Assembly: GCF_002943525.1 (NCBI RefSeq)
Contig: NZ_CP025394.1
Span: forward strand, 7,207,001 to 7,271,000
DNA from: Kitasatospora sp. MMS16-BH015
Lineage (GTDB): Bacteria; Actinomycetota; Actinomycetes; Streptomycetales; Streptomycetaceae
DNA: 64,000 nucleotides
Direction of reading: 5' to 3'
Shown: positions 7,247 to 31,678 of the stretch, one piece after another
Layout: each line of letters opens with the position of its first letter
How positions within the stretch are numbered: the stretch's first letter is position 1
Notes under the pieces: generated by a model
What the model was told of the DNA's origin: nothing
Seen by the model: the letters and a program-made list of their open reading frames with translations, nothing else
The model's database searches: none
Position numbers and translations under genes: made by a program

Positions 7247-7279
7247 GAGACCGTACGCCCGTGCGGCCGGGACACCGGG
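7247..7279 (+). promoter_or_regulatory. Shared 33-bp DosR-like element, copy A (cyclase operon)
   Basis: The 14-bp box GAGACCGTACGCCC is followed directly by GTGCGGCCGGGAC and ACCGGG. It ends 58 nt before the GTG of the cyclase gene, between it and the divergent phosphoribosyltransferase fusion. Spacing is identical to the other five copies. In all six, GGGAC-type half-sites start 22 bp apart. Confidence 0.7.
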
Positions 7280-7337
7280 ATGGCGACCGTGGAGGACAAG
7301 AAGTCCTGCCGTGACGAACGTGACGAAGGAGGCCGGT

Positions 7338-8510
7338 GTGCCTGCCAAGCGAGACGACTCTCACGGGCTCTACACCCTCGGGGAGCCCGTCACCGGGTGG
7401 ACGGTGACCACCGCCCTGCCGGTGACCTACCAGGTGAGCTTCAGTCCGGGGGTGCTCAACCCGGCCAACCCGGCGCTGGCCACGGCCGGGGCCACCCCCG
7501 GGCGGCGGCTGGTGGTGGTGGACGCCACCGTGCACGCGCTGCACGGCCACCGGATCCGGACCTACTTCGAGGCCCGGGGCCTGCCGCACCGGATCTGCGT
7601 GCTGCCCGCCCACGAGCAGCTCAAGACCATGGACTCCGTCTTCCGGGTGGCCGAGGCGATGGAGGGCTTCGGCTTGGCCCGACGGGGTGAACCGGTGATC
7701 GCCGTGGGCGGCGGCGTGCTGATGGACGTGGTCGGCCTGGCTTGTAGCCTCTACCGGCGCTCGACCCCGTTCGTCCGGGTGCCCACCACGCTGATCGGGC
7801 TGGTGGACGCCGGGGTCGGCGCCAAGACCGGGGTCAACTTCGGCCCGCACAAGAACCGGCTGGGCACCTACCACCCGGCCACCGCCACCCTGCTCGACCC
7901 GGCCTTCCTGGCCACCCTCGACCGGCGCCACCTGAGCAACGGCCTGGCCGAGATCCTCAAGGTGGCCCTGATCAAGGACCGCCGCCTGTTCGACCTCCTG
8001 GAGCAGGGCGGGGAGACCCTGCTGGCCCAGCGCTTCCAGGGCCCGGCGGCGATCGGCGGCGAGGTGCTGGTGCGGGCCGTGCACGGCATGCTCCAGGAGC
8101 TCCAGCCCAACCTCTGGGAGCACCGGCTGGAACGCTCGATGGACTACGGCCACTCGTTCAGCCCGACCGTGGAGATGCGGGCACTGCCCGAACTGCTGCA
8201 CGGCGAGGCGGTCTGCGTGGACATGGCGCTGACCACGGTGCTCGCCCAGCGGAGGGGACTGGTCGAGCCCGGGCAGCGGGACCGGATCATCGAGCTGATG
8301 CGCCGCCTCCGACTGCCGGTCTGGCACCCGCTGATGGAGCCGGCCACCCTCGGCGAGGCGCTCACCGACACCGTCCGCCACCGGGACGGCCGCCAGCGCC
8401 TCCCGCTCCCGGTCGGGATCGGCGAGGGCTGCTTCGCCGATGACCTCACCGCCCGCGAACTGGCCTCCGCGGCAGCCGAATTGAAGGAACTCTCATGCGT
8501 CACGCAGTGA
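7338..8510 (+). CDS. Sugar phosphate cyclase, 2-epi-5-epi-valiolone synthase type
   Basis: 390 residues, dehydroquinate-synthase superfamily. This clade cyclises sedoheptulose 7-phosphate to a C7-cyclitol (2-epi-5-epi-valiolone, or a close relative such as 2-epi-valiolone). Key motifs: NAD-binding AVGGGVLMDVVG (about 121-132), VPTTLIGLVDAGVGAKTGVN (about 148-167), KNRLGTYHP, the metal/active-site Glu in NGLAEILKVALIKD, MDYGHSF (His272) and HGEAV (His288). ACSLYRR and the AKTGVNF-KN-GTYHP block separate it from ordinary AroB. The GTG start is 5 nt after AAGGAGG (7326-7332); upstream sequence in the frame is not coding. It overlaps the next gene by 16 bp. It is the scaffold-forming enzyme of the cluster running to 19801. 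The exact product cannot be decided by eye. Confidence 0.93.
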   Translation: MPAKRDDSHGLYTLGEPVTGWTVTTALPVTYQVSFSPGVLNPANPALATAGATPGRRLVVVDATVHALHGHRIRTYFEARGLPHRICVLPAHEQLKTMDSVFRVAEAMEGFGLARRGEPVIAVGGGVLMDVVGLACSLYRRSTPFVRVPTTLIGLVDAGVGAKTGVNFGPHKNRLGTYHPATATLLDPAFLATLDRRHLSNGLAEILKVALIKDRRLFDLLEQGGETLLAQRFQGPAAIGGEVLVRAVHGMLQELQPNLWEHRLERSMDYGHSFSPTVEMRALPELLHGEAVCVDMALTTVLAQRRGLVEPGQRDRIIELMRRLRLPVWHPLMEPATLGEALTDTVRHRDGRQRLPLPVGIGEGCFADDLTARELASAAAELKELSCVTQ

Positions 8511-9214
8511 TCGTCGCGGACACCCGGCAGCCTGCCGAGGTGCACGGGGTGCACGGCACCCGGGGCCGCACCCGCTGGGCCTGCCTGGCCCGCCGGGCCG
8601 GCCTCGGCGGCGGCTGGGAAGCCGTCGAATGGGCCAGCGTGCCCCCGGGCGGGGTCAGCGGTGAACACCGCCACACCCGCACCGAAGAGGTCTACGTGCT
8701 GCTCGGCGGCCGCGGCGAGATCACCCTCGACGGCCGCCCCCACCCCGTCGAGGCCGGCGATGCCGTGCTCACCGGCCTCGGCACCACCCACGGCCTGCGC
8801 AACACCGGGCCGGAGAACCTGGACTGGCTGGTGATCGAGATGCCCGCTGCTCCTGTTGCCGATGCTACCGACGCCACCGACGGCCCGGTGGTCCGCCACA
8901 GCGTGGTGACCAACCTCCGCCGGGTCGGCCCGGTCGACCCGGCGGCCGTCTTCACCGGGCCGCTGCGCCTGCTCGAACACGTCACCCTGCCGCCGCGCGA
9001 GCGCGCGGTCTTCCGTACCGAGGGCGTCGAACACACCCTCTACGTCACGGCCGGCTCCGGCCGGGCCGCCACCGGTGACGTCCGGGTGCCGCTGATGCCC
9101 GGCCGGGCCCTCACCCTCCCGCTGGGCACCGGCGCCGCCCTGACCGCCGGCCTGGAGGGCCTGGAGTACGTCCACGCCGTCCTCACCGTCCCGCCCCGAG
9201 AGGTCGACCGATGA
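8495..9214 (+). CDS. Bicupin protein of the cyclitol operon
   Basis: 239 residues, two cupin barrels. The first (about 30-125) is a standard cupin_2 with HRHTRTEEVYVLLGG and GDAVLTGLGTTHGLRN, giving His/Glu/His metal ligands. The second (about 135-239) is divergent, lacks a clear metal set (GVEHTLYVTAGSG, PLMPGRALTLPLG), and is closely related to the separate gene at 14677-15021. The start codon lies inside the end of the cyclase gene (16-bp overlap) and the stop overlaps the next start (ATGA), so expression is coupled to cyclase. Cupins in such contexts are usually isomerases, epimerases, dehydratases or dioxygenases; which applies here is unknown. Confidence 0.85.
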   Translation: MRHAVIVADTRQPAEVHGVHGTRGRTRWACLARRAGLGGGWEAVEWASVPPGGVSGEHRHTRTEEVYVLLGGRGEITLDGRPHPVEAGDAVLTGLGTTHGLRNTGPENLDWLVIEMPAAPVADATDATDGPVVRHSVVTNLRRVGPVDPAAVFTGPLRLLEHVTLPPRERAVFRTEGVEHTLYVTAGSGRAATGDVRVPLMPGRALTLPLGTGAALTAGLEGLEYVHAVLTVPPREVDR

Positions 9215-9600
9215 TCGTCGCCGACATCGCCTACGCCACCGTCCACCTGGGCCCCGGCACCCAACGCGTCCGCACCCGCTGCCTGGCCCGCCGCGGCATG
9301 CTGCACAGCGAGTGCGAGTCCGTCGACCACGTCCGCCTCAGCCCGGGCGCCTGCTACGACCTGGCGGGCCGCACCGACACCGAGGCCGCCTGGTACGTCC
9401 TACGCGGCCCGGTCGCGTTGATCGACTGCTGCGACCACCCCCAACGCACCCTGCACGACGGCGACTTGCTCCTCGCCCCGGACGGCGAACGGGTCCACCT
9501 GCACGGCGGCCCGCTGGGCGCGGAGCTGCTCTGCCTGGCGGTCCTCCCGGCCGGGGTGAGCGGCGAACTGCCGGAGCGGCGGCCGGACTTGCCGCACTGA
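9211..9600 (+). CDS. Small cupin-like protein
   Basis: 129 residues, single cupin-like barrel: RTRCLARRGMLHSECESVDHVRLSPG, TEAAWYVLRGPV, LHDGDLLLAPDGERVHLHGGPLGAELLCL. The usual HxH metal motif is not obvious. It overlaps the upstream bicupin by 4 bp (ATGA). A clear paralogue is at 15018-15425, which also follows a paralogue of the bicupin C-terminal half, so a two-gene unit has been duplicated in the cluster. The gene ends 12 nt before the stop of a convergent gene. Function unknown. Confidence 0.82.
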   Translation: MIVADIAYATVHLGPGTQRVRTRCLARRGMLHSECESVDHVRLSPGACYDLAGRTDTEAAWYVLRGPVALIDCCDHPQRTLHDGDLLLAPDGERVHLHGGPLGAELLCLAVLPAGVSGELPERRPDLPH

Positions 9601-11680: not shown

Positions 11681-11713
11681 AGGACCGGCTGCCCGTGCGG
11701 CCGGGACGGCGGG
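11681..11713 (+). promoter_or_regulatory. Shared 33-bp DosR-like element, copy B (degenerate cyclase)
   Basis: AGGACCGGCTGCCC followed by GTGCGGCCGGGAC and GGCGGG, ending 42 nt before the ATG at 11756. Positions 15-27 are identical to copy A. It lies in the divergent gap with the TIR/NB-ARC gene and could serve both. Confidence 0.7.
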
Positions 11714-11755
11714 CGCCGCACGGTGGAGGGGAGAAATCGCCGAGGGAGGGCCGAG

Positions 11756-13246
11756 ATGGCCGACTCGTACCGGCTGGACCGGTTGTTGTGCGTGGGGGCT
11801 GCCCAAGTACCGCTGCGGGTACGGGAGGGGGACCAGGGATGGGACGAACTGGTACGGGAGATCGCGGGTTTGGCGGCTGACCGGTACGTGCTGCTGACCG
11901 ACGGCGTGGTGCCGGAGCAGCTCGCTGCCCGGCTGCCGGCCGGGCAGCGGCTGCGGGTGCCGGGGGTGGTGAGTCTGCAGACCGTGCAGCGGCTGGCCGA
12001 ACGGGTGGCGGCCGAGGGGGTCGGCCGGCGCACGGTGCTGATCGCGGTGGGCGGGGAGGGGCTGTGCGGCACGGCCGGAGTGCTGGCCGGGCTGCTGCTG
12101 CGGGGGTTGCGGCTGGTCCTGGTGCCGACCACGCTCGCGGCACTCGGTGGCTCGGCACTCTCGCTGCGGCAACGGCTGCCCTGCGGGCCGGACTTGGGCG
12201 CAGCGATCGGCGTCTGGCACGCTCCGGCCCTGGTCTGGGGCCAACTCGACCTCCTGGCCGCCGCTCCGCCCGACCGGCTCCGGGCCGACCTGGTCACCGT
12301 GGCCCGCCACGTCCTCGCCGTCTGCCCGTCCCAGCTCGACCGGATCGCCCCGGTTCTCGGCCCGACCATCGGCGCGGTTCTCGGCTCGGCTCTCGGCCCG
12401 ACCGCAGACCCGGCGCTCGGCCCGACTCTCGGCCCGACCGTCGGCCCGGCCGAGCTGACGGCGTCCGTGGCGATCTGCGCGGACGCCCGCGCGGCCGTGG
12501 CCGAGCACGACCCCCAAGAGGTGGGCCCGGCCCGGGCGTTGGAGTACGGGCGAGTGCTCGGGCAGGCGATCGTTTCGGTGGCGGGGGAGGGCTCGGCGTG
12601 GAGCCGCACCGACGGTCGCGGCCGACTGCCGGCGCAGGCCGACGGCCCCGGGCTGTCCTCGGGCGCCCATGGTGCTCCCGGCGGGTCGCCGGGGCGGGCC
12701 GGTGATCCTGGGCTCTCCTCGGGCGCGCTCGGCGGTATCGGCCGGCCGTCGGGCCGGGCCGGTGGCCACGGCTTGCTGCCGGGGTACGCCGACGGTCTCG
12801 GTCTCCTGCTGGCGGCGCGGATCGCCGGGGTCCTGGGCCTGCTCGACCCGGCGGGGGAACGGGCCCACCGCGACCTGTTGCGCCGGATCGGTGCCCCGGT
12901 CGCACTGCCGCCCGGCATCGACCTCGCCGCGCTGCTCGAAGCCGTCGGCCGCGCCATGGCCGCCACCGGCGAGCCGGGCCTCCTCCTGTTGGCAGGCCTC
13001 GGCCGACCGCACGTGGCCGAGGGCAGCCTGCTCACCCGGATCGGGCCCGACACCCTCCGGAGCGCCCTCGACTCCCTGCACACCACCCCGACTTCGGAGC
13101 GGAGGAGCACCACCCTGGCTCCCGCCTCCGCCTCGGCGACCGGGGGCGCCGCTCCTGCCTCCGCCCCCGGTCCTGCCTCCGCCCCCGTTCCGGCTCCCGC
13201 CCCCAGTCCCGTTGTTCCGGCTGCCCGGGCGGTGTCGGAGGCGTGA
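11756..13246 (+). CDS. Catalytically degenerate sugar phosphate cyclase homologue
   Basis: 496 residues. It aligns along its length with dehydroquinate-synthase-fold cyclases but has lost the active site. The N-terminal VPGVVSLQTVQRLAERVAAEGVGRRT matches the PGE-K-S-L-T segment. LIAVGGEGLCGTAGVLAGLLLRG replaces GGGV-MD, and VPTTLAALGGSALSLRQRL (about 123) keeps VPTT but loses the VDA-VG-KTG block. LEYGRVLGQAIV (about 262) replaces YGH-F-H, losing His. The HGEA motif has become PGYADGLGLLLAARIAGVLGLLD. A Gly/Ser/Pro-rich insert of about 60 residues and repeats of LGPT/VGPA interrupt it, and the tail is Ala/Pro-rich. ATG follows GGGAGGG. It is probably a structural or regulatory partner of the active cyclase, not an enzyme. 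Confidence 0.82.
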   Translation: MADSYRLDRLLCVGAAQVPLRVREGDQGWDELVREIAGLAADRYVLLTDGVVPEQLAARLPAGQRLRVPGVVSLQTVQRLAERVAAEGVGRRTVLIAVGGEGLCGTAGVLAGLLLRGLRLVLVPTTLAALGGSALSLRQRLPCGPDLGAAIGVWHAPALVWGQLDLLAAAPPDRLRADLVTVARHVLAVCPSQLDRIAPVLGPTIGAVLGSALGPTADPALGPTLGPTVGPAELTASVAICADARAAVAEHDPQEVGPARALEYGRVLGQAIVSVAGEGSAWSRTDGRGRLPAQADGPGLSSGAHGAPGGSPGRAGDPGLSSGALGGIGRPSGRAGGHGLLPGYADGLGLLLAARIAGVLGLLDPAGERAHRDLLRRIGAPVALPPGIDLAALLEAVGRAMAATGEPGLLLLAGLGRPHVAEGSLLTRIGPDTLRSALDSLHTTPTSERRSTTLAPASASATGGAAPASAPGPASAPVPAPAPSPVVPAARAVSEA

Positions 13247-13950: not shown

Positions 13951-14433
13951 ATGGCAATCGCCCTCCGCAAGACGCTTGCCCTCGCCACCCTGGCGCTGAC
14001 CGCTTCGCTCCTCCCCGCCGGTACGGCGGGCGCCGCCGCCCCGGCGGCCCAACCGGCCAAGCGCACACCCGGCCTCTACTGCCTCGCCAACGCCTGGAGC
14101 ACCCCGAACGTCGGCACCAAGCCGTGCGACGGGGGCGACCAGGGCCAGCACTGGACCGTCACGGGCGAGCAGATCTCCCTCTCCGGCGCTCGGGCCTACT
14201 GTCTCGCCAACACCTGGGGCAAGCCCGACATCTCCACCAAGGGCTGCAACACCGGTGACCAGGGCCAGTACTGGAGCATCCAGGGCGACCAGATCCACCT
14301 GACCTTCGCCCCCGCCTACTGCCTCGCCAACACCTGGAACACCCAGAACGTCTCCACCAAGCCCTGCGACTCCGCCGACAAGGGCCAGCACTGGGTGGTC
14401 TTCGGCGACCAGATCAGCCTGGGCCAGGCCTGA
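13951..14433 (+). CDS. Secreted three-repeat lectin-like protein
   Basis: 160 residues. An N-terminal Sec signal (about 1-29, RKTLALATLALTASLLPAGTAGA) is followed by three tandem repeats of about 39 residues (about 43-79, 82-118, 122-157). Each has the form YCLANTW-x5-ST-KPCD-x2-D-GQHW-x-V-GDQI-L. Two Cys per repeat would form a disulphide, and the GQHW/GQYW motif recalls the QxW of beta-trefoil (ricin-type) lectins. Three repeats would close one trefoil. It is monocistronic: a 180-nt gap precedes it and a strong hairpin follows. It lies between the two halves of the cyclitol cluster and may not belong to it. Confidence 0.85.
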   Translation: MAIALRKTLALATLALTASLLPAGTAGAAAPAAQPAKRTPGLYCLANAWSTPNVGTKPCDGGDQGQHWTVTGEQISLSGARAYCLANTWGKPDISTKGCNTGDQGQYWSIQGDQIHLTFAPAYCLANTWNTQNVSTKPCDSADKGQHWVVFGDQISLGQA

Positions 14434-14676: not shown

Positions 14677-15021
14677 ATGTCCAGCACTGCGATCACCGCC
14701 CTGCACCGGGGCCGCGCCGTCGACCCCGGGCAGGTGCTCACCGGCCCGCTGCGTGGGGTCGGGCTCTCCTGGCTGGAGCCGGGGGAGAGCATCCTGCTCG
14801 AGGCCGACGAGGTCGAGCACGCCGTGTACGTCACCGCCGGCAGTGGCCTGGCCGCTGCGGAGGGTGACGGGGAGGGCCCGGACGAGGAGGTCGAGGTACC
14901 GCTCGCCGAGGGCACCGCGCTGACCCTGCCGCTGGGCGGCGAGGTCACCATCGTGGCCGGGGAGGCGGGGCTGGAGTACTTCCACGCCGTCCTGGCCGTG
15001 TCGCGAGGAGGCATCCGATGA
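14677..15021 (+). CDS. Small cupin-like protein, paralogue of the bicupin C-terminal half
   Basis: 114 residues, first gene of the seven-gene operon. It matches the second half of the protein encoded at 8495-9214 almost block for block: VDPGQVLTGPLRGVGLSWLEPGES versus VDPAAVFTGPLRLLEHVTLPPRE, VEHAVYVTAGSGLA versus VEHTLYVTAGSGRA, and LEYFHAVLAVSRGG versus LEYVHAVLTVPPRE. GAGGAG precedes the ATG. The stop overlaps the next start (ATGA). No metal-binding HxH is present, so a structural or ligand-binding role is as likely as catalysis. Confidence 0.82.
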   Translation: MSSTAITALHRGRAVDPGQVLTGPLRGVGLSWLEPGESILLEADEVEHAVYVTAGSGLAAAEGDGEGPDEEVEVPLAEGTALTLPLGGEVTIVAGEAGLEYFHAVLAVSRGGIR

Positions 15022-15425
15022 TCGTCACCACCGCAGGAGCGGCCGCCATGGTGGTCATGGGCCGGGGCAGCGAGCGGACCCGCGTCCGCTGCCTGGCCCG
15101 CCGCGACCTGCTGCACAGCGAGTGCGAGGCCTTCGAACACGTCCGGCTCAGCCCCGGCGGCTCGCACCGCCGGAGCGGTCGCCGGGCCACCGAGACCGCC
15201 TGGTACGTGCTGCGCGGCCCGGTGCTCGCCGTCCAGGGCCCGGACCCGGTGCAGCACCTCGCCGACACCGGCGACCTGCTGCTGATCGGCCGGGGCCAGG
15301 ACCTCGACCTGGCGGCCGGCCCGCTCGGAGCCGAGCTGCTCTGCCTGACCATCGGCGCCGAACCCGCCCTCCCGGTCCTCACGGCCGCCCGGCGGGCCCG
15401 CCCCCGGCGGACGGACCGGCCGTGA
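15018..15425 (+). CDS. Small cupin-like protein, paralogue of 9211-9600
   Basis: 135 residues. Shares RTRVRCLARRDLLHSECEAFEHVRLSPGG, TETAWYVLRGPVLAV and GPLGAELLCL with the product of 9211-9600, which sits in the same order behind the same partner. It is coupled on both sides by 4-bp overlaps (ATGA, GTGA). The C-terminus carries an extra Arg/Pro-rich tail (ARRARPRRTDRP) absent from the paralogue. Function unknown. Confidence 0.82.
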   Translation: MIVTTAGAAAMVVMGRGSERTRVRCLARRDLLHSECEAFEHVRLSPGGSHRRSGRRATETAWYVLRGPVLAVQGPDPVQHLADTGDLLLIGRGQDLDLAAGPLGAELLCLTIGAEPALPVLTAARRARPRRTDRP

Positions 15426-16588
15426 CCACCGCGGCCCAGGCCGGCCCGAAGGTGCCCGCGCAGGCGGGCACCATGGCGGCGCTGCGGATCGAGGGGCCGC
15501 ACCGGGTCGCGCTGGCCCGGGTGCCGCGCCCGGAGCCCGGCCCGGGCAGTGTGCTGGTGCGCACCGCCCTGGTGGGCCTCTGCGGCACCGACCTGGAGCT
15601 GCTGCACGGCACCGCCTCGTACCTGCGGGACGGGCGGGCGGGCTACCCCGTGGTGTTCGGCCACGAGTGGACCGGCACCGTGGTCAGCCCCGGCCACGAA
15701 CTCGCCGTCGGCGAACGCGTGGTGGGCCACACCATGCTGCACTGCGGCTACTGCCGGATGTGCCTGCGCGGGCGCCGCACGCTCTGCGAACGGCTCCGCG
15801 AGGTCGGCCTCTACGGCCAGCAGGGCGCCGCCGCCGAGTACGTGGTGATGCCCGAGGGTTCGCTCAGCCGGGTGCCGGACGGGGTCACCGACCGGGCCGC
15901 GGCGCTCACCGAGCCCGCCGTGACGGTGGTCGGCGGCCTGGAGCTGGCCCGCTGCGGGCTGGCCGACCGGGTGGCCGTGATCGGCACCGGCACGATCGGC
16001 CTGCTCGCCGTCCAACTCGCCGCCCGTACCGCCGGATCGGTGGACGCGATCGGGATCGACCCGGCCGGTCTGGAGCTGGCCCGTCGGTGCGGGGCCCGGC
16101 GCGGGCTCACCCCCGAGCTGGCCGGCCGCACCGGGCTCGGCCGCTACTCCCTGGTGGTGGAGGCCAGCGGCGCGGCCAGCGCCTTCCGGCTGGGCCTCGA
16201 CCTGCTGGAGCCGGGCGGCCGGCTGACCGTGATCGGGGTGGCCGGCGCCCCCGCCGAGGGCTTCGCCCCGGGCGAGTTGGCGCTGCGCGGCCTGGAGGTG
16301 ATCGGCGTGCGGCACGGCCTCGACTACTACGACCGCACCCTGCGGCTCTACCAGGACGGCGTCCTGGACGCCGACCCGCTGATCGCCGCCGTGCTCCCCG
16401 CCGCCGAGGGCCCCCGTGCCTTCGAGCTGCTGGCGAACGGGCGCAGCGGCCCCCCGAAGCTGCTGCTCGACTTCTCCGACTCGGCCGACCGTGGCCGAGC
16501 TGACGGTGACCGGGCCGACCGCAACCAGGCCGACCGCAACCAGGCCGACCATGACCCGGCCGACCACGACCGAGGAGGCTCCCGATGA
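15422..16588 (+). CDS. Zinc-dependent alcohol/polyol dehydrogenase (MDR family)
   Basis: 388 residues, medium-chain dehydrogenase. Catalytic-zinc ligands are in LCGTDLELLHG (Cys) and FGHEWTGTV (His-Glu). The structural-zinc loop is HCGYCRMCLRGRRTLC (four Cys). The Rossmann motif is VAVIGTGTIGLLAVQLAA. The closest pattern is sorbitol/threonine/inositol-type dehydrogenases acting on polyols, fitting oxidation of a cyclitol hydroxyl. The GTG start overlaps the preceding stop. The C-terminus extends beyond the fold with a charged repeat (RADRNQADRNQADHDPADHD) encoded by 15-bp direct repeats, an oddity probably irrelevant to catalysis. Exact substrate unknown. Confidence 0.9.
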   Translation: MTTAAQAGPKVPAQAGTMAALRIEGPHRVALARVPRPEPGPGSVLVRTALVGLCGTDLELLHGTASYLRDGRAGYPVVFGHEWTGTVVSPGHELAVGERVVGHTMLHCGYCRMCLRGRRTLCERLREVGLYGQQGAAAEYVVMPEGSLSRVPDGVTDRAAALTEPAVTVVGGLELARCGLADRVAVIGTGTIGLLAVQLAARTAGSVDAIGIDPAGLELARRCGARRGLTPELAGRTGLGRYSLVVEASGAASAFRLGLDLLEPGGRLTVIGVAGAPAEGFAPGELALRGLEVIGVRHGLDYYDRTLRLYQDGVLDADPLIAAVLPAAEGPRAFELLANGRSGPPKLLLDFSDSADRGRADGDRADRNQADRNQADHDPADHDRGGSR

Positions 16589-17334
16589 TCCTGGTACCCG
16601 CCGCGATACCCGAACGAGCGCCGTGCTTCCGGCGGTTGATCGACCTGCAGCTCTTCCCGCAGGCCCTGGGCGGCGTCACGGTGGAGGCCGTGCACGCCGG
16701 GACGCGGGCCGAGGAGTCGACCGGGGCCGAGGCCGTGACGGTGCTGCTGACCGGCCGGGCCGGCTGGCCCGGCGGTGAACTCCGGCCCGGCCACGGGCTC
16801 TACCACCCGGCGGGCACCCGGTACGGGATCAGCGTGGGCCGCTCGCCGGCCGTGCTGCTCACCGTGCACGCCCGTCCGGAGCCGGGGCCGCGCTGTGTCC
16901 TGCCCGCCGCGCGCAGCGAGGACGGGCACGGCGAGCACGGGGGGAGCGTGCCGCTGGCCCGGCGGCGCGAGCGGGGTGAACTCCGGCGGGCCGGTGGCTT
17001 CGAGGGGATGGCCGTGCACTGGCTGGCCACCACCGGCACCGTCGGTTCCCGCCGACTGGCCGTGGCCACCTCCACCTTCGTGCCCGGCGGCACCCACCAC
17101 CTGCACCGGCACCCGGCGGCGGACGAGTTCTTCCTCGTGCTGCTCGGCGGCGGCGACCACCTCACCGAGAACGGGCGGGTGCGGCTCGGCCAGGGCGACT
17201 TGGCGTACGTGCCGGCGGGGGAGTGGCACGGCTTCCGGACCAGGCGCGGGGTCACCACGGTGGCGCTGTACGGGTACCTGGGCGCGGGGAGCCTGGCCGG
17301 GGCCGGGTACCAGGTGCGCGAGGAGGCCGCCTGA
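16585..17334 (+). CDS. Bicupin protein, second copy in cluster
   Basis: 249 residues, two cupin barrels. The N-terminal barrel (about 20-105) lacks a clear HxH. The C-terminal barrel (about 140-235) is canonical, with STFVPGGTHHLHRHPAADEFFLVLLGGG giving HxH and Glu, and GDLAYVPAGEWHGF giving the last His. It therefore probably binds a metal and is enzymatic or sugar-binding. ATGA overlap with the upstream dehydrogenase and TGATG overlap with the SDR show tight coupling. It is not an obvious paralogue of the bicupin at 8495. Precise reaction unknown. Confidence 0.85.
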   Translation: MILVPAAIPERAPCFRRLIDLQLFPQALGGVTVEAVHAGTRAEESTGAEAVTVLLTGRAGWPGGELRPGHGLYHPAGTRYGISVGRSPAVLLTVHARPEPGPRCVLPAARSEDGHGEHGGSVPLARRRERGELRRAGGFEGMAVHWLATTGTVGSRRLAVATSTFVPGGTHHLHRHPAADEFFLVLLGGGDHLTENGRVRLGQGDLAYVPAGEWHGFRTRRGVTTVALYGYLGAGSLAGAGYQVREEAA

Positions 17335-18113
17335 TGGCCGCGATCGTGACCGGGGGCAGCTCGGGGATCGGCCGGGCGGTGGTGCTGGCCCTGGCGGCGG
17401 CCGGGCACCAGGTGGCCGTGGGGTACCGGAGCGACCGGGCGGGGGCCGTGCGGACGGCCGAACTGGCCGGTCAGGGGCTGGTGTTCGCGCTGGACCTGGC
17501 GGACCCGGCCGGCGCCGCGGCGGCCGTGGGGCGGGCGGCCGAGCGGTTGGGGCAGGTGGACGTGCTGGTCAACTGTGCGGGGGTGAACCGGCGTTCGCCG
17601 GTGCTGACGGAGACGCTGGCCGAGTGGCAGCGGATCCTCACCGTCGACCTGACCGGCCCGTTCGCCTGCGCCCAGGAGGCGGCCCGCCGGATGGTGGCGC
17701 TCGGGCGGGGCGGCCGGATCGTCAACGTCACCTCGGTGCACGAGTACGTGCCGATCCTCGGCGGGGCCTCCTACTGCGCGGCCAAGGGCGGGCTCGGCGA
17801 GCTGACCAAGGTGATGGCGCTCGAACTGGCGCCGTACGGCATCACGGTCAACGCGGTGAGCCCCGGCGAGACGGCCACCCCGATGAACGGCGTGCCGGAC
17901 GGGCAGGACGCCGCCGAGTACCCCCGCCCCGAGATCCCGCTCGGCCGGCCCGGCCGGGCGGCCGAAGTGGCCGCAGCCGTGGCCCACTTGGCCGCACCCG
18001 AGGCGGCCTACACCACCGGCGTGACGCTCACCGTGGACGGCGGGCTCAGCCTGACGGCCGCGCTGGCCAACCAGCGCTACGCCGCGATCACCGAGAACGG
18101 AGACCCGCGATGA
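17334..18113 (+). CDS. Short-chain dehydrogenase/reductase
   Basis: 259 residues, classical SDR. The cofactor motif is IVTGGSSGIGRAV (TGxxxGIG), followed by VNCAGV (NNAG equivalent), the catalytic Ser in IVNVTSVHE and YCAAKGG (YxxxK). The C-terminal TTGVTLTVDGGLS is typical of 3-oxoacyl-ACP-reductase-like SDRs. The ATG at 17334 is chosen because it forms a TGATG junction with the upstream stop; longer forms would overlap the bicupin. In the operon it would reduce or oxidise a carbonyl/hydroxyl on the cyclitol. Assignment of family is secure, substrate is not. Confidence 0.93.
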   Translation: MAAIVTGGSSGIGRAVVLALAAAGHQVAVGYRSDRAGAVRTAELAGQGLVFALDLADPAGAAAAVGRAAERLGQVDVLVNCAGVNRRSPVLTETLAEWQRILTVDLTGPFACAQEAARRMVALGRGGRIVNVTSVHEYVPILGGASYCAAKGGLGELTKVMALELAPYGITVNAVSPGETATPMNGVPDGQDAAEYPRPEIPLGRPGRAAEVAAAVAHLAAPEAAYTTGVTLTVDGGLSLTAALANQRYAAITENGDPR

Positions 18114-18682
18114 CCGGCCATTCCCCCCAGCGCGGCATACCGGGTGCCCTCGCCGTGCACCATGTCGCCTACACCGTGCCGGATCTGGACCAGGCGGTGG
18201 AGTTCTTCACCACCGTGCTCGGCGCCCGGTTGCTCTACCGGATCGGACCGGTGGCGGACGCCGAGGGCGACTGGATGACCCGCCAACTCGGCGTCGACCG
18301 GGCCGCCTCCGCGCAGATCGCGATGCTGCGGCTCGGCCCGGTGACCAATCTGGAGCTGTTCGAGTACACCGCTCCCGACCAGCGCCGCACGCTGCCGCGC
18401 AACAGCGACTGGGGCGGCCACCACCTGGCCATCGCGGTGGCGGACGTGGACGCGGCGGTGGCCTACCTGCGGGCGCAGCCGGGCGTGGAGGTGCTCGGCG
18501 AACCGCAGACCATCACCGACGGCGGCCCGATCGACGGCGACCGCTGGGTCTACTTCCGCGCGCCCTGGGGCCTCCAGCTGGAGGTGCTGCGGATGCCGCC
18601 CGGCATGCCGTACGAGCGGGCCACCGAGGCCCGGCTGTACGCCCCGGACGGGCCCTGGAGCACACCGGGCGAAGGGAGTTGA
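18110..18682 (+). CDS. VOC-family protein, candidate cyclitol epimerase
   Basis: 190 residues, glyoxalase/VOC fold. Two beta-alpha-beta-beta-beta modules: ALAVHHVAYTVPDLDQAVEFFTTVLGARLLYRI, and GGHHLAIAVADVDAAVAYLRAQPGVEVLG ending YFRAPWGLQLEVLRMP. Metal ligands are plausibly His in HHVAY, Glu in NLELFEY, His in GHHLAIAV and Glu in QLEVLR. In cetoniacytone biosynthesis a VOC protein (CetB) next to the cyclase epimerises 2-epi-5-epi-valiolone. The same pairing here makes that activity a good but unproven guess. It overlaps the SDR gene by 4 bp and is followed 3 nt later by the last dehydrogenase. Confidence 0.85.
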   Translation: MTGHSPQRGIPGALAVHHVAYTVPDLDQAVEFFTTVLGARLLYRIGPVADAEGDWMTRQLGVDRAASAQIAMLRLGPVTNLELFEYTAPDQRRTLPRNSDWGGHHLAIAVADVDAAVAYLRAQPGVEVLGEPQTITDGGPIDGDRWVYFRAPWGLQLEVLRMPPGMPYERATEARLYAPDGPWSTPGEGS

Positions 18683-18685
18683 GCG

Positions 18686-19801
18686 ATGAACCTGGCGACG
18701 CAAGCGGCCGTGGTCCGCACCCCGGGCGGCCCGTTCGAGCTGGAGCAGGTCTGGCTGGACGTGCCCAAGGCGGACGAGGTGCTGGTGCGGATCGAGGCGG
18801 TGGGCATCTGCCACACCGACCTGAGCGTCCGAGCCGGGCGCACCCCCGGGCCGCTGCCCGCCGTGCTGGGGCACGAGGGCAGCGGGGTGGTCGAGGCGGT
18901 CGGCCCGGCGGTGACCCGGGTGCGGCCCGGGCAGCGGGTGGTGCTCACCTTCGCCTCCTGCGGCGGCTGCCCGCCCTGCCGGGAGGGCAGCCCGGTGCGC
19001 TGCGAGCACTGGCCGGCCCTCAACCTCTACGGCGGCGCCCGGCTGGACGGCAGCGCCACCCTCTGGGCCGCCGACGGATCGCCGCTGCACGGTCACTTCT
19101 TCGGCCAGTCCTCCTTCGCCGGCCATGCGTTGGCGAGCGAGCGGAACGCCGTCCCGGTGCCGGACGGACTGCCGCCCGAGCTGCTCGCCCCGCTCGGCTG
19201 CGGGGTGCAGACCGGGGCCGGTGCCGTGCTCAACGTGCTGCGGCCCGGGCCGGGCGAGACGCTGGTGGTCTTCGGCGCGGGCGGGGTCGGCCTGGCCGCT
19301 GTGCTGGCCGCCCGGCTGACCGCCGCCACCCGGATCCTGGTGGTCGACCTGCTGCCCGCCCGGCTCGCGCTCGCGCTGGAGCTGGGCGCCACCGAGGTGA
19401 TCGACGCCGGGGCCGAGGATGCGGTGACCACCGTCCGGCGGCTGACCGGCGGCAGGGGGGCCGAGCACGCGCTGGAGACCACGGGCAGTGTGCGGGCGCT
19501 GCGGCAGGCGGTGGAGTGCCTGGCCGTCGGCGGCGCCTGCGGGGTGGTCGGCGCCCCGCCCGCCGGGACGGAGGTGGCCCTGGACGTGCCCGCGCTGCTC
19601 GGCCGGGCGCCCCGGATCCTCGGCATCAACCAGGGCGCGGCCCGGCCGGCCCGCTTCCTGCCCGCGCTGGCCGAACTGGTCCGGTCCGGGCGGCTGCCGG
19701 TGGAGCGGCTGGTGCGGTGCTACCCCTTCGCCGAGATCGAGCGCGCGGCCGAGGCGGCCCGCTCCGGAGAGGTGGTCAAGCCGGTGCTGGTTCTCACCTG
19801 A
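18686..19801 (+). CDS. Zinc-dependent alcohol dehydrogenase (aryl-alcohol type)
   Basis: 371 residues, MDR family. Catalytic-zinc residues are in GICHTDLSVRAG and LGHEGSGVVEAVG. The structural-zinc Cys cluster is SCGGCPPCREGSPVRC, and the Rossmann motif is LVVFGAGGVGLAAVLAA. The GAGGVG motif, LFGQSSFAGHAL loop and overall order resemble benzyl-alcohol (XylB-like) and mycothiol/alcohol dehydrogenases. It is the last gene of the operon, 3 nt after the VOC gene. With the dehydrogenase at 15422 and the SDR, the cluster has three nicotinamide oxidoreductases, implying several oxidation-state changes on the C7 ring. Confidence 0.92.
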   Translation: MNLATQAAVVRTPGGPFELEQVWLDVPKADEVLVRIEAVGICHTDLSVRAGRTPGPLPAVLGHEGSGVVEAVGPAVTRVRPGQRVVLTFASCGGCPPCREGSPVRCEHWPALNLYGGARLDGSATLWAADGSPLHGHFFGQSSFAGHALASERNAVPVPDGLPPELLAPLGCGVQTGAGAVLNVLRPGPGETLVVFGAGGVGLAAVLAARLTAATRILVVDLLPARLALALELGATEVIDAGAEDAVTTVRRLTGGRGAEHALETTGSVRALRQAVECLAVGGACGVVGAPPAGTEVALDVPALLGRAPRILGINQGAARPARFLPALAELVRSGRLPVERLVRCYPFAEIERAAEAARSGEVVKPVLVLT

Positions 19802-25311: not shown

Positions 25312-25998
25312 GTGGATGAGCAGCTGCGGGATGGGCAAGGCACGGCGGGGCCGGTTCGGGTACTGATCGTCGACGATCACCCCCTGTTCCGGGAGGGGCT
25401 GAAGGCGGCGCTGGAGAGCGCCGAGGGGGTGAGCGTGGTGGGGGAGGCCGAGACGGTGGCCGTCGTCGCGGAGGCGGTGGCGCAGAGCCGGCCCGACGTG
25501 GTGGTGATGGACCTGACGCTGCCGGACGGTTCGGGGCTGGACGCCACCCGGCGGATGGCCGAGCAGGGGCCGGCGGCGCCGCCGGTGCTGATGCTGACCA
25601 TGGCGGACGACGACGGCAGCCTGCTGGCCGCGCTGCAGGCGGGCGCCCGGGGCTACCTGGTCAAGGGGGCCGGGCGGGACGAGGTGCTGCACGCGGTGCG
25701 GACGGTCGCCGCCGGCGGGGCGGTGTTCGGGGCCGAGATCGCCGGGCGGATCACCGCGCTGCTGGCCGGCACCAAGCTGCGCGAGGCCGGGCAGCTCTTC
25801 CCCTCGCTGACGGCCCGCGAGGCGGAGGTGCTGGCGCTGGTCGCCCGGGGCTTCGACAACCACCGGATCGCCCGCGAGCTGGTGGTGGCCGAGAAGACCG
25901 TGCGCAACCACGTGACCCACATCTTCGAGAAGCTGCACGTGGCCACCCGCGCCGAGGCGGTGGCCCGGGCCCGCGACATGGGCCTCGGCGAGGAGTGA
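25312..25998 (+). CDS. NarL/LuxR-type response regulator
   Basis: 228 residues. The receiver domain (about 10-130) has VLIVDDHPLF (acidic pair), VVVMDLTLPDGSG (phospho-acceptor Asp), MLTMADD and GYLVKGA (Lys). The C-terminal LuxR HTH (about 165-225) is LTAREAEVLALVARGFDNHRIARELVVAEKTVRNHVTHIFEKL. The recognition helix AEKTVRNHV keeps the Lys and Asn that in Mycobacterium DosR (AEKTVKNYV) contact GGGAC. Start is GTG at 25312 with little leader; it may be leaderless. The partner kinase begins 107 nt downstream, with a copy of the shared element between them. It is the best candidate in the window to bind the 33-bp elements. Confidence 0.92.
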   Translation: MDEQLRDGQGTAGPVRVLIVDDHPLFREGLKAALESAEGVSVVGEAETVAVVAEAVAQSRPDVVVMDLTLPDGSGLDATRRMAEQGPAAPPVLMLTMADDDGSLLAALQAGARGYLVKGAGRDEVLHAVRTVAAGGAVFGAEIAGRITALLAGTKLREAGQLFPSLTAREAEVLALVARGFDNHRIARELVVAEKTVRNHVTHIFEKLHVATRAEAVARARDMGLGEE

Positions 25999-26104: not shown

Positions 26105-28213
26105 ATGAGCCAGACCGCGCCGTTCCGCGAGTCCGTCGCCACCCCGAGCGGGCGGGCGGCGCCCGTCCTGCGACAGCGGCTGGCCCTGGCCGCCTGCGGG
26201 TTGACCCAGCTGAGCGGGTTGGCCTGGGCGGTGATGGCGCTCTCCCACCCGCACGCCGAGGTGAGCTTCTTCTACACGTACTTCGGCGGGCTGCTCGCGC
26301 TGGCGATGTGCTTCTCGCTGGTCGGCGCCTCGCTGGTGATCCGCCGCAAGGCGGCCGGGCTCGGCGTGGTCTTCCTGGTCGACGGCCTGCTGGAGGCCGT
26401 CACCCTGGCGGCCACCCTTGGGGCAGCGCTGACCGGGGCCGACGGCCTGGTGCTGGACGTGCTCACGGCGGTGGCGGTGGTCTTCTGGATCGCCAACAAC
26501 TTCCTGATGATGGCCCTGCCGCTCTGGCTGCCCGACGGCCGGCTGCCGGGCGGCCTGCTCGGGCGGGGCCTGGTCGCGCTGACCGGGCTGGCCGCCGTGC
26601 TGCTCGGGTACTTCACGGCGGCCGGGTACCCGATCTGGTTCGTGGTGGACAACCCGCTGGCCCACGGGGTCTGGGGCGAGCTGGAGGACGGCCTGACCCA
26701 CCTGCTCGGCGATCCGCACGCCACCGTGCAGATGGCCCAGCACGTGTTCGTGGCCTTCATGGCCGTCAACCTGCTGGTGGCCGTCCTGCGCTGGCGCCGC
26801 TCCACCGGCCCGCACCCGGGGATGGCCGGGGTGCTGGTCGCCTACCTGCTCTGGGCCACCGCCATCACCCTGCCGTACTACCTGGGCGTGGACGGCTGGC
26901 CGCTGGACGTGCTGACCATCCTCGGCCCGGTGCTGGTGGTGCCGCTGCTGGTGCAGGGGTACCTGCGGGACCGCTCGCTGCCGCTGGACCGCTCCACGCT
27001 GCGCTGGCTCGGCGCGTACACCTGCAGCGCGCTGCTCCACCTGCTGGCGGTGGCGCTGGTCTACGTGGTGCACGAGCTGCTGCCGGGGGTGCACTGGGGC
27101 GGCTCGGTCTGGTGGTGGAGCGTGCTCGGGGCGCTCGCGGCCGGGGCGCTGCTGCGGCCCGGGGCCGAGCGGGTGGTGCGCGCGGTGGACCGGTACTTCT
27201 ACGGCGACCGCGCGCAGCCGTACCACGTGGCCCGCGGCCTGGCCGAGCAGCTGCGCCGCACCGTCGACCCGGCCGACGCGCCCCGGCTGCTCTGCGAGAC
27301 GGTGGTCGGCTCGCTCGGCATGCCCGCCGCCGCCGTGCGGGTGGAGGGCCGGGGCGGTCGGCGCGAGCTGGCGGCGCTCGGGCCGGTGGACCGGGTGGCG
27401 GTGGTGCCGGGGGAGAGCTTCCCGCTCAGCTACGAGGGCACCGCGATAGGAGAGCTCTGGGTCAGCCCGCGGGCCGGGCAGAACGCCCTCGACCCGCAGG
27501 ACCGCGAGGTGCTGCAACTGCTCGCCGACCAGGCCTCGCCGGCGATCGCCTCGCTGCGCCTGTACGAGGACCTCCAGGCCAGCCGCAAGCAGCTGGTGCT
27601 GGCCCGGGAGGAGGAGCGACGCCGGCTGCGCCACGACCTGCACGACGGGCTGGGCCCGGCGCTCTCGGGCCTGCGGCTCCAGGTGGACGCGGCCCGGGCC
27701 GGGCTGTCCGGGCCCGCCGGGCAGACCCTCGCCTCCGCCTCGGCAGGCATCGGGCTGGCCATCACCGAGCTGCGCCGGATCACCGACGGGCTGGCCCCGG
27801 CCGCGCTGGGCAGCGAGGGCCTGGGCGGGGCGCTGCGCCAGCTGGCCGAGCGGCTGAACGCCAGCTCGGTGCGGATCGCGCTGGACCTCGCCCCCGACCC
27901 GCTGCCGCCGCTGCCCGCCGCCGTGGAGGTGGCGGTCTACCGGATCAGCGGCGAGGCGCTCAACAACGTGGTGCGGCACTCGGGCGCCACCGACGTGCGG
28001 CTGGTGGTCCGGGTGGACGAGCAGGACGTCACGGTGGAGGCCCAGGACAACGGCGCCGGCTTCCCCGGCCACACCGACGGCGCGGGGGTGGGCCTGCGCT
28101 CGATGGCCGAGCGGGCCGAGGAGCTGGGCGGCAGCTTCAGCGCCGCCAACGACCTCAAGGGCGCGGTGGTCCGCGCCGTCTTCCCCCGGCCGAACGCCCT
28201 GCAGGAGGGCTGA
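26105..28213 (+). CDS. Multi-membrane-spanning sensor histidine kinase (HisKA_3)
   Basis: 702 residues. The N-terminal third (about 15-340) holds about nine to ten hydrophobic segments (for example LAMCFSLVGASLVI, LTGLAAVLLGYFTAAGY, VLGALAAGALL). A GAF-like part follows (about 375-490, CETVVGSLGMPAAAVRV, LQLLADQASPAIASLRLYEDL). The dimerisation box is EEERRRLRHDLHDGLGPALSG with phospho-acceptor His. The HATPase has GEALNNVVRHSGAT (N box), DNGAGF (G1) and GVGLRSMAERAEELGG (G2). This is the NarX/DegS/DesK-like class that pairs with NarL regulators such as the upstream gene. The signal may be membrane, redox or small-molecule derived. AGGAGGG precedes the ATG. Confidence 0.93.
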   Translation: MSQTAPFRESVATPSGRAAPVLRQRLALAACGLTQLSGLAWAVMALSHPHAEVSFFYTYFGGLLALAMCFSLVGASLVIRRKAAGLGVVFLVDGLLEAVTLAATLGAALTGADGLVLDVLTAVAVVFWIANNFLMMALPLWLPDGRLPGGLLGRGLVALTGLAAVLLGYFTAAGYPIWFVVDNPLAHGVWGELEDGLTHLLGDPHATVQMAQHVFVAFMAVNLLVAVLRWRRSTGPHPGMAGVLVAYLLWATAITLPYYLGVDGWPLDVLTILGPVLVVPLLVQGYLRDRSLPLDRSTLRWLGAYTCSALLHLLAVALVYVVHELLPGVHWGGSVWWWSVLGALAAGALLRPGAERVVRAVDRYFYGDRAQPYHVARGLAEQLRRTVDPADAPRLLCETVVGSLGMPAAAVRVEGRGGRRELAALGPVDRVAVVPGESFPLSYEGTAIGELWVSPRAGQNALDPQDREVLQLLADQASPAIASLRLYEDLQASRKQLVLAREEERRRLRHDLHDGLGPALSGLRLQVDAARAGLSGPAGQTLASASAGIGLAITELRRITDGLAPAALGSEGLGGALRQLAERLNASSVRIALDLAPDPLPPLPAAVEVAVYRISGEALNNVVRHSGATDVRLVVRVDEQDVTVEAQDNGAGFPGHTDGAGVGLRSMAERAEELGGSFSAANDLKGAVVRAVFPRPNALQEG

Positions 28214-29753: not shown

Positions 29754-31595
29754 TCACATACCGCCGGTCGCCATCCCGCCCATCCCATCCATCCCGCCCA
29801 TGCCGCCCGTGCCGCCGGTCAGGTCGAGCACGGCGCCCGGGGTGACGGTGAAGGGCCGCATCATGCCGTCGTCCTCGTGGTCGAGGATGTGGCAGTGGTA
29901 CATGAACTTGCCGGTCGCTCCGGTGAACTGGCCCGCGATCCGGACGAGTTCACCCGGTGACACCTTGATCACGTCCTTCCAGCCCTGGTCGGCGGGCGGG
30001 ATCGGGGTCTCGGTGCCCCAGGTGACCGGCGAGCCGATCGGGGTGCCGCCGCCCTGGAAGGAGGAGACGTCGCAGACAGCTCGGGTCAGCTCCTGGAAGC
30101 GGATCAGGTGCAGGTGCACCGGGTGCAGCGCCACGCTCAGGTTGACGAAGGTCCACTGCTCCCAGGAGTCCTGCCGCACCCGGAAGTCGAGCCGGTCGTC
30201 GAAGTCGGCCGCCACCCGGCGGTAGGTCCGCACCGGCTGACCGGCCTGCTGGATCTGCACGTAGCCGTCCACCGTGGTTCCGGCGGGCGGGAGTTCGGCG
30301 TCCGGCACCGGCTCCATCTCCCAGAGCTGGAAGACCCCGGCGGTCGAGCGGCCCAGGGCCACCACGCGGTGCTCGTGCTCGGGCAGGGTGTCGTGGGAGA
30401 GGCGCCGGTAGCTCGGCGAGAGCACCGGGGGCAGGGTGAAGGGGTCAGGTTCGGGCTCCGGGGTGGCGCTCACCCGGAACTCCAGCACCTCCGGGTCGGG
30501 CAGCCGGTTGGCCGGGTCGGGCACCCCGACCGGGTCGGTGTCGCCGATCGGCTGGCCGTCGTAGGGCTGCGGGGCGGAGTTGACCAGCCGCAGCCGGCGG
30601 CCGGCCAGCGCGCGGAAGTCGATCAGGAGGTCGGCCCGTTCGGCGGCGGCCAAGGTCAGCCCCTGGGCCGGGAGTTCGGCCGGGGCGCCGAGCAGGCCGC
30701 CGTCGGTGCCGATCTGCCGGCAGATGCCGGGCACCCGCTGGTTCTCCTCGTCCACCAGGTGCAGCCGGAAGGCCCGCGAGCTGGAGGCGTTCAGCACCCG
30801 GAACCGGTACCAGCGGGCCCGCACCTCCAGGTGCGGCCAGATCGCGCCGTTGACCAGGGTGTACCGCCCGGCGAAGGGCAGCGGGCCGACGGTCTTGAAG
30901 AGCAGCTGCCCGGTCAGCGCGCCGTCGGCGTCGGTGGCCAGATTGCGGTCGCAGAGCACCAGCGGCACCTCGAACTCGTCGGCGGGCAGCCCGAGCGCGT
31001 CCTCCTCCTCGTCCCGGACGAGGTAGAGGCCGGCCAGCCCGGCGTTGACGTTCAGCCGGGTGATGCCCATCGCGTGGTCGTGGTACCAGAGTGCGGTGGC
31101 CGCCTGGTCGTTCGGGTACTCGGCGAGCTGCGACTCACCGGTGAGCACCCCGTTGTCCGTCCAGCCGTCGTGCCCGCCGCCGGTCACCCCACCGTGCAGG
31201 TGGGTGACCGTCCAGGCGGGCAGCGCGGCGGCCTTGGCGTCGACCAGCGTGGGGTCCAGGCCGGGGGAGTTCTCGGCCGGCGGCTGGGCGATGGCGGCCA
31301 GCCGGCCCACCTGGGCCGGGTACGGGGTGCTGAGCTGGTTCTGCCAGGCCACCCGCAGCCGCTGCCCGCGCCGCACCTCGATGGTGGGCCCGGGGAAGCT
31401 GCCCTCGTAGGTCCAGAGCGGGGTGGGCGGCAGCTCGGAGTGCAGCCGCTGCTCGGCGGGCAGCAGCCGCACCGTCAGCTCGGTGCCCGGCCGGAGCACC
31501 GGCGGTACGGGCAGCGGATCGGCGAACTTGGTCAGCTCGGTGGTGACAGCGGTGACGGTGGTGACAGCGGTGGCGGTCGGGGCAGGTGCGGTCAT
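29754..31595 (-). CDS. Multicopper oxidase (CotA/bilirubin-oxidase-like) with Met-rich tail
   Basis: 613 residues, three cupredoxin domains. Copper motifs: THLHGGVTGGGHDG and LWYHDHAMGITR in domain 1; HPVHLHLIRFQ and MYHCHILDHEDDGMMRPF in domain 3, with Cys-His coordinating type 1 copper and Met as axial ligand. No signal peptide is apparent, as in spore-coat CotA. The C-terminus adds a Met/Gly repeat (GGMGGMDGMGGM), possibly extra copper binding. AGGAAG precedes the ATG at 31595, and copy E of the shared element lies 50 nt upstream, linking it to the cyclitol cluster's promoters. Could oxidise phenols, metals or pigments. Confidence 0.93.
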   Translation of the reverse strand: MTAPAPTATAVTTVTAVTTELTKFADPLPVPPVLRPGTELTVRLLPAEQRLHSELPPTPLWTYEGSFPGPTIEVRRGQRLRVAWQNQLSTPYPAQVGRLAAIAQPPAENSPGLDPTLVDAKAAALPAWTVTHLHGGVTGGGHDGWTDNGVLTGESQLAEYPNDQAATALWYHDHAMGITRLNVNAGLAGLYLVRDEEEDALGLPADEFEVPLVLCDRNLATDADGALTGQLLFKTVGPLPFAGRYTLVNGAIWPHLEVRARWYRFRVLNASSSRAFRLHLVDEENQRVPGICRQIGTDGGLLGAPAELPAQGLTLAAAERADLLIDFRALAGRRLRLVNSAPQPYDGQPIGDTDPVGVPDPANRLPDPEVLEFRVSATPEPEPDPFTLPPVLSPSYRRLSHDTLPEHEHRVVALGRSTAGVFQLWEMEPVPDAELPPAGTTVDGYVQIQQAGQPVRTYRRVAADFDDRLDFRVRQDSWEQWTFVNLSVALHPVHLHLIRFQELTRAVCDVSSFQGGGTPIGSPVTWGTETPIPPADQGWKDVIKVSPGELVRIAGQFTGATGKFMYHCHILDHEDDGMMRPFTVTPGAVLDLTGGTGGMGGMDGMGGMATGGM

Positions 31596-31645
31596 GGCGG
31601 GTGACTTCCTGGGCGGTGGTTGTTGCCACCGCCCAGCGTCACGGG

Positions 31646-31678
31646 CCCGGTGTCCCGGCCGCATGAGGCACCGGCCCC
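31646..31678 (-). promoter_or_regulatory. Shared 33-bp DosR-like element, copy E (multicopper oxidase)
   Basis: Read on the minus strand: GGGGCCGGTGCCTC followed by ATGCGGCCGGGAC and ACCGGG. It lies 50 nt before the oxidase ATG. Its 3' 19 bases differ from copy A in only one position. It is just downstream of the stop of the neighbouring acyl-CoA dehydrogenase gene, so the oxidase is its only target. Confidence 0.7.

Follow-up and report, generated by a model that had tools for sequence, protein, structure and literature searches.

The window that we analyzed, a 64,000-nucleotide stretch of the genome of Kitasatospora sp. MMS16-BH015, holds a gene for an EEVS-type cyclase and, in the same carbasugar-type cluster, a gene whose product has the sugar-phosphate-cyclase fold without the catalytic residues. 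We refer to the latter as the pseudo-cyclase, or dead gene; L and G numbers below are our own handles for loci and genomes. The features of the window considered here are:

7258..7292, + strand: shared promoter element before the cyclase (pattern and matrix search)
7338..8510, + strand: EEVS-type cyclase, catalytic residues intact (PDB 4p53, ValA, E 1.7e-141; GTG start at 7338)
8495..9214, + strand: cup1, two-part cupin (Pfam Cupin_2; metal motif HxH..E..H in the first half)
9211..9600, + strand: cup2, small cupin-like protein (without HxH; Pfam Cupin_2 below cut-off only)
11692..11726, + strand: shared promoter element before the pseudo-cyclase (0 mismatches; holds the inverted repeat CCGTGCGGC/GCCGCACGG)
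11756..13246, + strand: pseudo-cyclase, 496 residues, sugar-phosphate-cyclase fold without catalytic residues
14608..14642, + strand: shared promoter element before hcup (pattern and matrix search)
14677..15021, + strand: hcup, relative of the second half of cup1 (without metal motif; no Pfam match)
15018..15425, + strand: cup2b, relative of cup2 (without metal motif; no Pfam match)
15422..16588, + strand: zinc-type alcohol dehydrogenase (ADH) of the cluster
16585..17334, + strand: second two-part cupin (bicupin)
17334..18113, + strand: short-chain dehydrogenase (SDR)
18110..18682, + strand: VOC (glyoxalase-fold) protein
18686..19801, + strand: ADH2, second zinc-type alcohol dehydrogenase
25312..25998, + strand: response regulator, NarL/LuxR type (by co-occurrence, the likely regulator of the shared promoter)
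26105..28213, + strand: sensor histidine kinase (a hydrophobic N-terminal half in the hydropathy profile suggests a membrane protein)
29754..31595, - strand: multicopper oxidase, the fourth transcription unit with the shared element
31633..31667, - strand: shared promoter element before the multicopper oxidase (1 mismatch)

The pseudo-cyclase reading frame starts with an ATG at 11756 and its stop codon ends at 13246; for the cyclase, an upstream GTG at 7311 is also a possible start. The order of the cluster is EEVS, cup1, cup2, pseudo-cyclase, hcup, cup2b, ADH, bicupin, SDR, VOC and ADH2, with the response regulator and kinase farther on, and the left flank is devoted to tyrosine catabolism (HPPD and fumarylacetoacetase above the NCBIfam cut-offs, a homogentisate-dioxygenase-like protein below). 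The multicopper oxidase gene lies approximately 20 kb from the cyclase, and its 70–72% orthologues are found beside a histidine kinase in L112 and L113. In the window row of our cupin alignment and in one hcup query, hcup was read in the frame from 14678 rather than the correct 14677.

Two other genes of the window lie between members of the cluster. The first (9613-11613, - strand), between cup2 and the pseudo-cyclase, encodes an HATPase/NB-ARC protein in which a TIR match stays under the cut-off; it had no homologue among the predicted genes of 17 other loci and may be an insertion of a defence-type or regulatory kind. The second (13951-14433, + strand), between the pseudo-cyclase and hcup, encodes a small secreted-looking protein of three similar repeats, ricin-B-like by eye, to which none of the predicted genes of the compared loci is homologous. 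A second layout, in which the dead gene is followed by EEVS, cup1, cup2, VOC and so on, occurs in L059, L100, L101, L104, L138, and L140. In L104 a type III polyketide-synthase-like gene (8345-9418, - strand) is situated between the dead gene and EEVS, with a weak copy of the promoter element (4 mismatches) before it. At L136 (7383-12571) the dead gene is followed by an NRPS-like protein of 1328 residues (AMP-binding, carrier, thioesterase); that locus has a perfect copy of the element and a two-component system.

The pseudo-cyclase has both the sequence profile and the fold of the DHQS-like proteins. It matched the Pfam family DHQ_synthase (PF01761) with 41.1 bits, above the cut-off of 24.2, and DHQS_C with 23.3, under the cut-off of 27.6; the one further match to the Pfam family in the window genome is presumably AroB. 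The closest solved relative by sequence was the 2-deoxy-scyllo-inosose (DOI) synthase (DOIS) BtrC (PDB 2d2x, E 6.7e-24), the next being a DHQS at 1e-9. An AlphaFold2 model of the pseudo-cyclase, made with seven family members, had a mean pLDDT of 61.8 and a pTM of 0.58, with pLDDT values of 72–88 in 12 of its first 13 ten-residue blocks and poorly predicted inserts and tail. A Foldseek search with this model placed DOIS 2gru first (E 4.6e-17), and VIA-align gave a Z of 27.9 over 344 residues against the same structure, approximately 27 against several DHQS, and 23.8 against ValA 4p53. As the VIA-align rows near Z 27 are effectively tied, the fold ranking alone is no proof of descent from a DOIS. 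An initial annotation, made from the letters of the window, had proposed that the fold pattern of the superfamily was kept, and the segments PGVVSLQT, AVGG, VPTTL, EYG, and GLLD are all present in the translation; the comparison of a predicted structure with EEVS and DHQS structures, which it had put forward as a check, returned the same fold.

The active site has not been kept. In the residue numbering of A. nidulans DHQS, mapped on an AroB of the genus, the three metal ligands E194, H271, and H287 are Thr, Arg, and Pro in the window protein, and H275 is Gln. Every member of the substrate Lys/Asn set is changed or missing (K152, K197, and K250 to Arg; K161 and N162 lost), Gln or a gap stands in place of K84, D146 has become Gly, and GGG has Glu as its third residue. 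The catalytic losses claimed in the initial annotation are real, but they are not this strain's own, being a property of a whole old family. Among 18 dead proteins, residue 197 is Arg in all 18, Lys-152 and His-287 are found in none, His-271 in one (L059), Glu-194 in four, and the third Gly in two. Unlike BtrC, then, the pseudo-cyclase has neither metal ligands nor catalytic lysines, and most members have also lost the third Gly of the NAD loop; we are almost certain that the protein is not a cyclase.

The long Gly/Pro insert that had also been noted is present in the window protein as two inserts, at approximately residues 208–229 and 283–342, both tandem-repeat expansions. Both are missing from five aligned relatives, and the second is also missing from the other dead rows of a larger alignment, so that the inserts look strain-specific. 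Dead proteins range from 315 to 496 residues, and in seven loci some 11 internal residues are missing. Five genomes have a TGA within the last part of the profile match, and the frames there stop at profile position 366–375 of 389; the C-terminus is therefore possibly shorter in those five genomes.

The cyclase tree included 21 dead rows (L026, which contains a stretch of N, was left out), and these formed a single clade (100/99) with the intact cyclase of L137 as sister (99/98) and L029/L102 next. The EEVS rows lie beyond the starred branches, on the other side of the tree from the dead clade. This places the dead proteins with DOIS-type enzymes, in a tree from which BtrC itself is absent and in which the functional labels of the reference cyclases L029, L102, and L137 rest on similarity; L137 matches BtrC (2d2x) with an E of 3.3e-75. 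The tree and the BtrC-like L137 thus trace the dead protein to an intact ancestor of DOIS type, on that side of the superfamily, rather than to its EEVS neighbor. That the gene is a dead copy of the neighboring EEVS is ruled out by the cyclase trees: the two proteins share a fold and a cluster, but the pseudo-cyclase falls outside the EEVS branch and has no active site. The description of the gene as a degenerate paralogue of the active one consequently holds at the level of the superfamily only. Behind the intact DOIS-like cyclase of L137 (8480-9631) come a cupin, whose HxH..E..H motif is complete, and a short-chain dehydrogenase.

A dead orthologue was identified in 17 of 70 genomes of the genus, a count that excludes AroB-level matches and weaker matches in G082, G023, G006, and G021 in which the catalytic residues are kept. 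Carriers include Kitasatospora paracochleata, K. purpeofusca, and Kitasatospora sp. MBT63 and A2-31, as well as Streptomyces sp. CB01881, Streptomyces sp. NRRL F-6131, and S. melanogenes (L059). In the family, for which 150 genomes were sampled from a larger group, 11 had a match at 1e-30; six of these are within the genus, and the five outside it comprise four dead genes (L136, L138, L139, and L140) and one intact cyclase (L137). In total there are 22 dead loci, 17 in the genus and five elsewhere (the four named and L059). A related-locus search with the window protein alone found none, and the same search with a family alignment found seven. Judged from these sequences, the pseudo-cyclase family is old, with every member lacking the catalytic center and with representatives in several genera.

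A 35-bp element, CYCRTGYGNCCGGGACNNCGGGNNNNNNANNGTSG, precedes EEVS, the dead gene and hcup, with one copy before each. Searched with up to three mismatches, the pattern has four sites in the 9-Mb genome, all inside the window (reversed control, 0), and GCCCGTGCGGCCGGGAC occurs without mismatch at two genome sites only, before the cyclase and before the dead gene. The earlier remark that the two cyclases have an identical promoter element upstream is thus borne out in a stronger form. Because the pattern was drawn from these sites, it is the lack of sites elsewhere and the fourth site, before the multicopper oxidase, that are informative; the multicopper oxidase probably belongs to the cluster. 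With a promoter matrix for which the training regions and the scored upstream regions were identical, and with several EEVS starts set by hand, 46 of 49 regions reached at least 8 bits, the lowest of the 46 having 19.3 and the best of 980 shuffled regions 18.8. The three misses were the EEVS of L096, where a pattern scan located the site further upstream, and both the dead gene and hcup of L095, which are without a site. Among the dead loci of the genus, L095 alone has no site even when four mismatches are allowed, the element before the dead gene being kept in all the others.

A two-component system encoded in the cluster itself probably makes use of the element. Most relatives have a site with one to four mismatches beside the kinase or regulator gene (in a scan run without a shuffled control), and in the window that position has a weak matrix match only, of 15 bits. 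No two-component system was found in approximately 55 kb around the locus in G042, the genome that carries L095; as this stretch has neither the system nor the site, the response regulator is the likely user of the element. The two-component system is the commonest companion of the dead gene, present in 20 of the 21 resolvable dead loci (L026 is cut by a contig end), but that companionship alone shows no functional link, since the system probably drives the promoter.

The initial annotation went further and suggested that a co-regulated dead paralogue acts as a partner, regulator or scaffold. A partnership has precedent: according to PMC5201418, the trypanosome AdoMetDC prozyme heterodimerises with its enzyme and activates it, and, like the pseudo-cyclase, it is a superfamily member without catalytic residues that is presumably co-expressed with an active one. 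The pseudo-cyclase would then form a heteromer with EEVS and activate, stabilise or restrain it. A second dead paralogue is reportedly also able to activate a partner. The promoter element common to both genes, their place in one cluster and their statistical association all favor such a partnership. Over the 70 genomes, 12 have both the dead gene and an EEVS (intact or broken), five the dead gene only, two EEVS only, and 51 neither, including one with a fragment (G044), giving an association of p 4e-8 with kinship ignored. This positive association leaves room for a role of the dead gene linked to cyclisation.

However, the two genes do not travel together as an enzyme and a prozyme would. 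At a threshold of E 1e-40, the EEVS orthologue of the 17 dead-bearing genomes is intact in nine (G000, G014, G077, G078, G002, G060, G054, G075, and G085), broken in three (G007, G082, and G063), and missing from five, of which G024, G006, and G041 have no match and G021 and G042 have a 44% and a 35% relative elsewhere, respectively. Conversely, in G048 and G061 EEVS is intact and the place between cup2 and hcup holds no dead gene; both genomes also keep cup1, cup2, hcup, cup2b, VOC, ADH2, and the two-component system. The constant presence beside the served enzyme that would be expected of a prozyme was therefore not found (5/17 without the enzyme; two with the enzyme alone). Outside the 70 genomes, EEVS is intact in L059, L138, and L140, and none was found in the stretches examined of L136 and L139. 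In L025, what is left of a cup1 gene lies upstream of the dead gene and suggests that EEVS was deleted there; no such remnant was found by tblastn upstream of the dead gene of L095. On a flank tree of 25 genomes (type B loci, which have no tyrosine-catabolism flank in the stretch examined, were excluded) the dead gene requires at least three changes, losses if presence is ancestral, and intact EEVS at least six; the two therefore change separately. An independent-pair test of co-evolution had five pairs only.

These distributions indicate that neither gene needs the other and that their association is as expected of members of one cluster, and EEVS activity apparently does not depend on the pseudo-cyclase. 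The dead protein descends, moreover, from another enzyme class than EEVS, a further point of difference from the AdoMetDC prozyme. Known EEVS such as ValA are active alone, which also counts against a partner. Of the suggested partnership, then, the dead fold, the shared element and weak selection (below) hold, and the pairing itself does not fit with descent from the DOIS side and separate change; we consider a heteromer in which it modulates EEVS very doubtful, though the two proteins may interact where both are present.

In the three broken EEVS genes the frame is open and catalytic residues are lost, by a loop deletion in L028 (8447-9559) and L098 (10528-11559) and by K152T, K161G, and K197Q in L096 (11931-13079). 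On these substitutions and deletions, the broken EEVS of the three loci is a candidate second pseudo-cyclase in the making. Nine further genomes have hcup and cup2b (one a cup2b fragment only) with neither EEVS nor dead gene, and in their reduced loci (L125–L133) hcup and cup2b stand behind the same element, mostly with bicupin and two-component parts. Seven reduced loci, in all of which the dead gene is kept, had pointed to a dead gene that preferentially outlives the pathway, a proposal withdrawn after these nine genomes were found; counting them and the G044 fragment as well, 9 of 11 loci that have an intact EEVS carry the dead gene vs. 8 of 18 without (p 0.06).

The dead gene might instead be what is left of a former second cyclase, decaying slowly and with no present function. 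Its weak constraint, its variable length and strain-specific repeat inserts, the possible C-terminal shortening in five genomes, its lack in G048, G061, and the nine-genome clade and the piecemeal loss of the cluster in the genus are all consistent with decay. The substitution patterns argue otherwise, as codon positions 1 and 2 of the dead gene changed less than intergenic DNA in all five pairs of loci compared. With site counts rebuilt from rounded rates, the changes were 51/784 vs. 118/908 for L028/L098 (p 1e-5), 156/724 vs. 440/1107 for L027/L030, 128/742 vs. 119/243 for L095/L094, 75/592 vs. 72/187 for L103/L104, and 117/726 vs. 97/462 for L101/L100, the weakest pair (p 0.04). Codon position 3 in L028/L098 equals intergenic DNA (p 0.79). 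Frame-breaking indels are also fewer, with 6 of 22 indels inside the dead gene not divisible by three vs. 38 of 49 in the DNA between genes (p 1e-4). Such indels are seen inside the dead gene in the DNA alignments of three of the five pairs (2/6, 2/6, and 2/5), and these must compensate one another or be misaligned, because both frames are open.

By our own NG86-type estimate, whose values are biased upwards by high G+C, dN/dS for the dead gene is 0.43–0.62 (13 pairs). For EEVS the same estimate gives 0.20 and 0.22 in two pairs with both copies intact and 0.31, 0.52, and 0.57 in pairs that include a broken copy, so that by this measure the dead gene resembles a broken EEVS. Taken with the codon-position and indel results, the dead gene is, by these comparative measures, under weak purifying selection. 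Since the EEVS genes of both L028 and L098 have lost the D146/K152/K161/N162 loop, selection on the dead gene apparently continued there without an intact EEVS. Decay is also difficult to reconcile with a frame that stays open across the conserved region in each of the 17 rows counted and with the invariant columns, 34 of 311 well-filled columns in 17 dead proteins (L026 left out of the count). The element is kept before the dead gene in every locus of the genus bar L095, and the dead proteins form a single clade without catalytic residues that spans several genera. We therefore regard a functionless relic as unlikely, and believe that the pseudo-cyclase is probably maintained for a function.

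The invariant columns raise the question of whether the protein has become a new catalyst, with a metal- and NAD-independent reaction performed by residues invariant in the dead family. Several of these have reactive side chains (in window numbering, the invariant residues include R184, C190, C241, D252, Y264, and H371), and there are family-specific motifs such as RHVLAVCP and CADARAA. However, R184 and R245 merely substitute the old lysines, a change also favored by high G+C, and seven loci have internal deletions. Further, no enzyme of the cyclase fold is known to work without metal or cofactor. A new catalytic activity is in our view highly improbable.

A kept fold, a shared promoter element and maintenance by weak selection together make a non-catalytic role likely. 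The explanation that we prefer, with moderate confidence, is that the DOIS-derived pseudo-cyclase was kept as a non-catalytic accessory, in binding or regulation, and is dispensable for cyclisation. An intact DOIS-type cyclase would have entered, or stayed in, a cyclitol cluster built around EEVS, lost its metal, NAD, and substrate-lysine sites and been retained as an accessory, apparently co-expressed with the cluster and transcribed behind the element common to EEVS, the metal-less hcup/cup2b and the multicopper oxidase. The protein may bind a cyclitol or cyclitol phosphate in a remodelled pocket, or another protein of the cluster, for example one of the cupin-like proteins or part of the sensor system; such binding may help in regulation, handling or product tolerance, rather than in the cyclisation step. 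A more specific version, in which the pseudo-cyclase is a ligand-binding sensor for the cyclitol or sugar phosphate of the pathway and tunes the two-component regulon together with the metal-less cupins, is distinctly unlikely as it stands. If true, it would mean that an ancestral DOIS had turned into a metabolite receptor able to outlive its pathway.

Pseudoenzymes are well known in signalling. A kept fold, lost catalysis and a probable binding or regulatory role would place the pseudo-cyclase among the pseudoenzymes in general, as treated in PMC10211241, in whose main text the words cyclase and dehydroquinate do not appear. The members of the sugar phosphate cyclase superfamily are given in PMC4426668, and PMC11528492 concerns a different pseudoenzyme. 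Among the matches listed in the open-access literature, the scope of our search, there was no described catalytically dead sugar phosphate cyclase, and likewise no description of this EEVS cluster with its private four-promoter regulon, which is itself a usable lead. The series from the intact sister in L137 to 21 dead descendants can be traced, with natural losses of either gene, and the genomes in which EEVS and the pseudo-cyclase are separated make the purpose of a dead biosynthetic enzyme directly testable.
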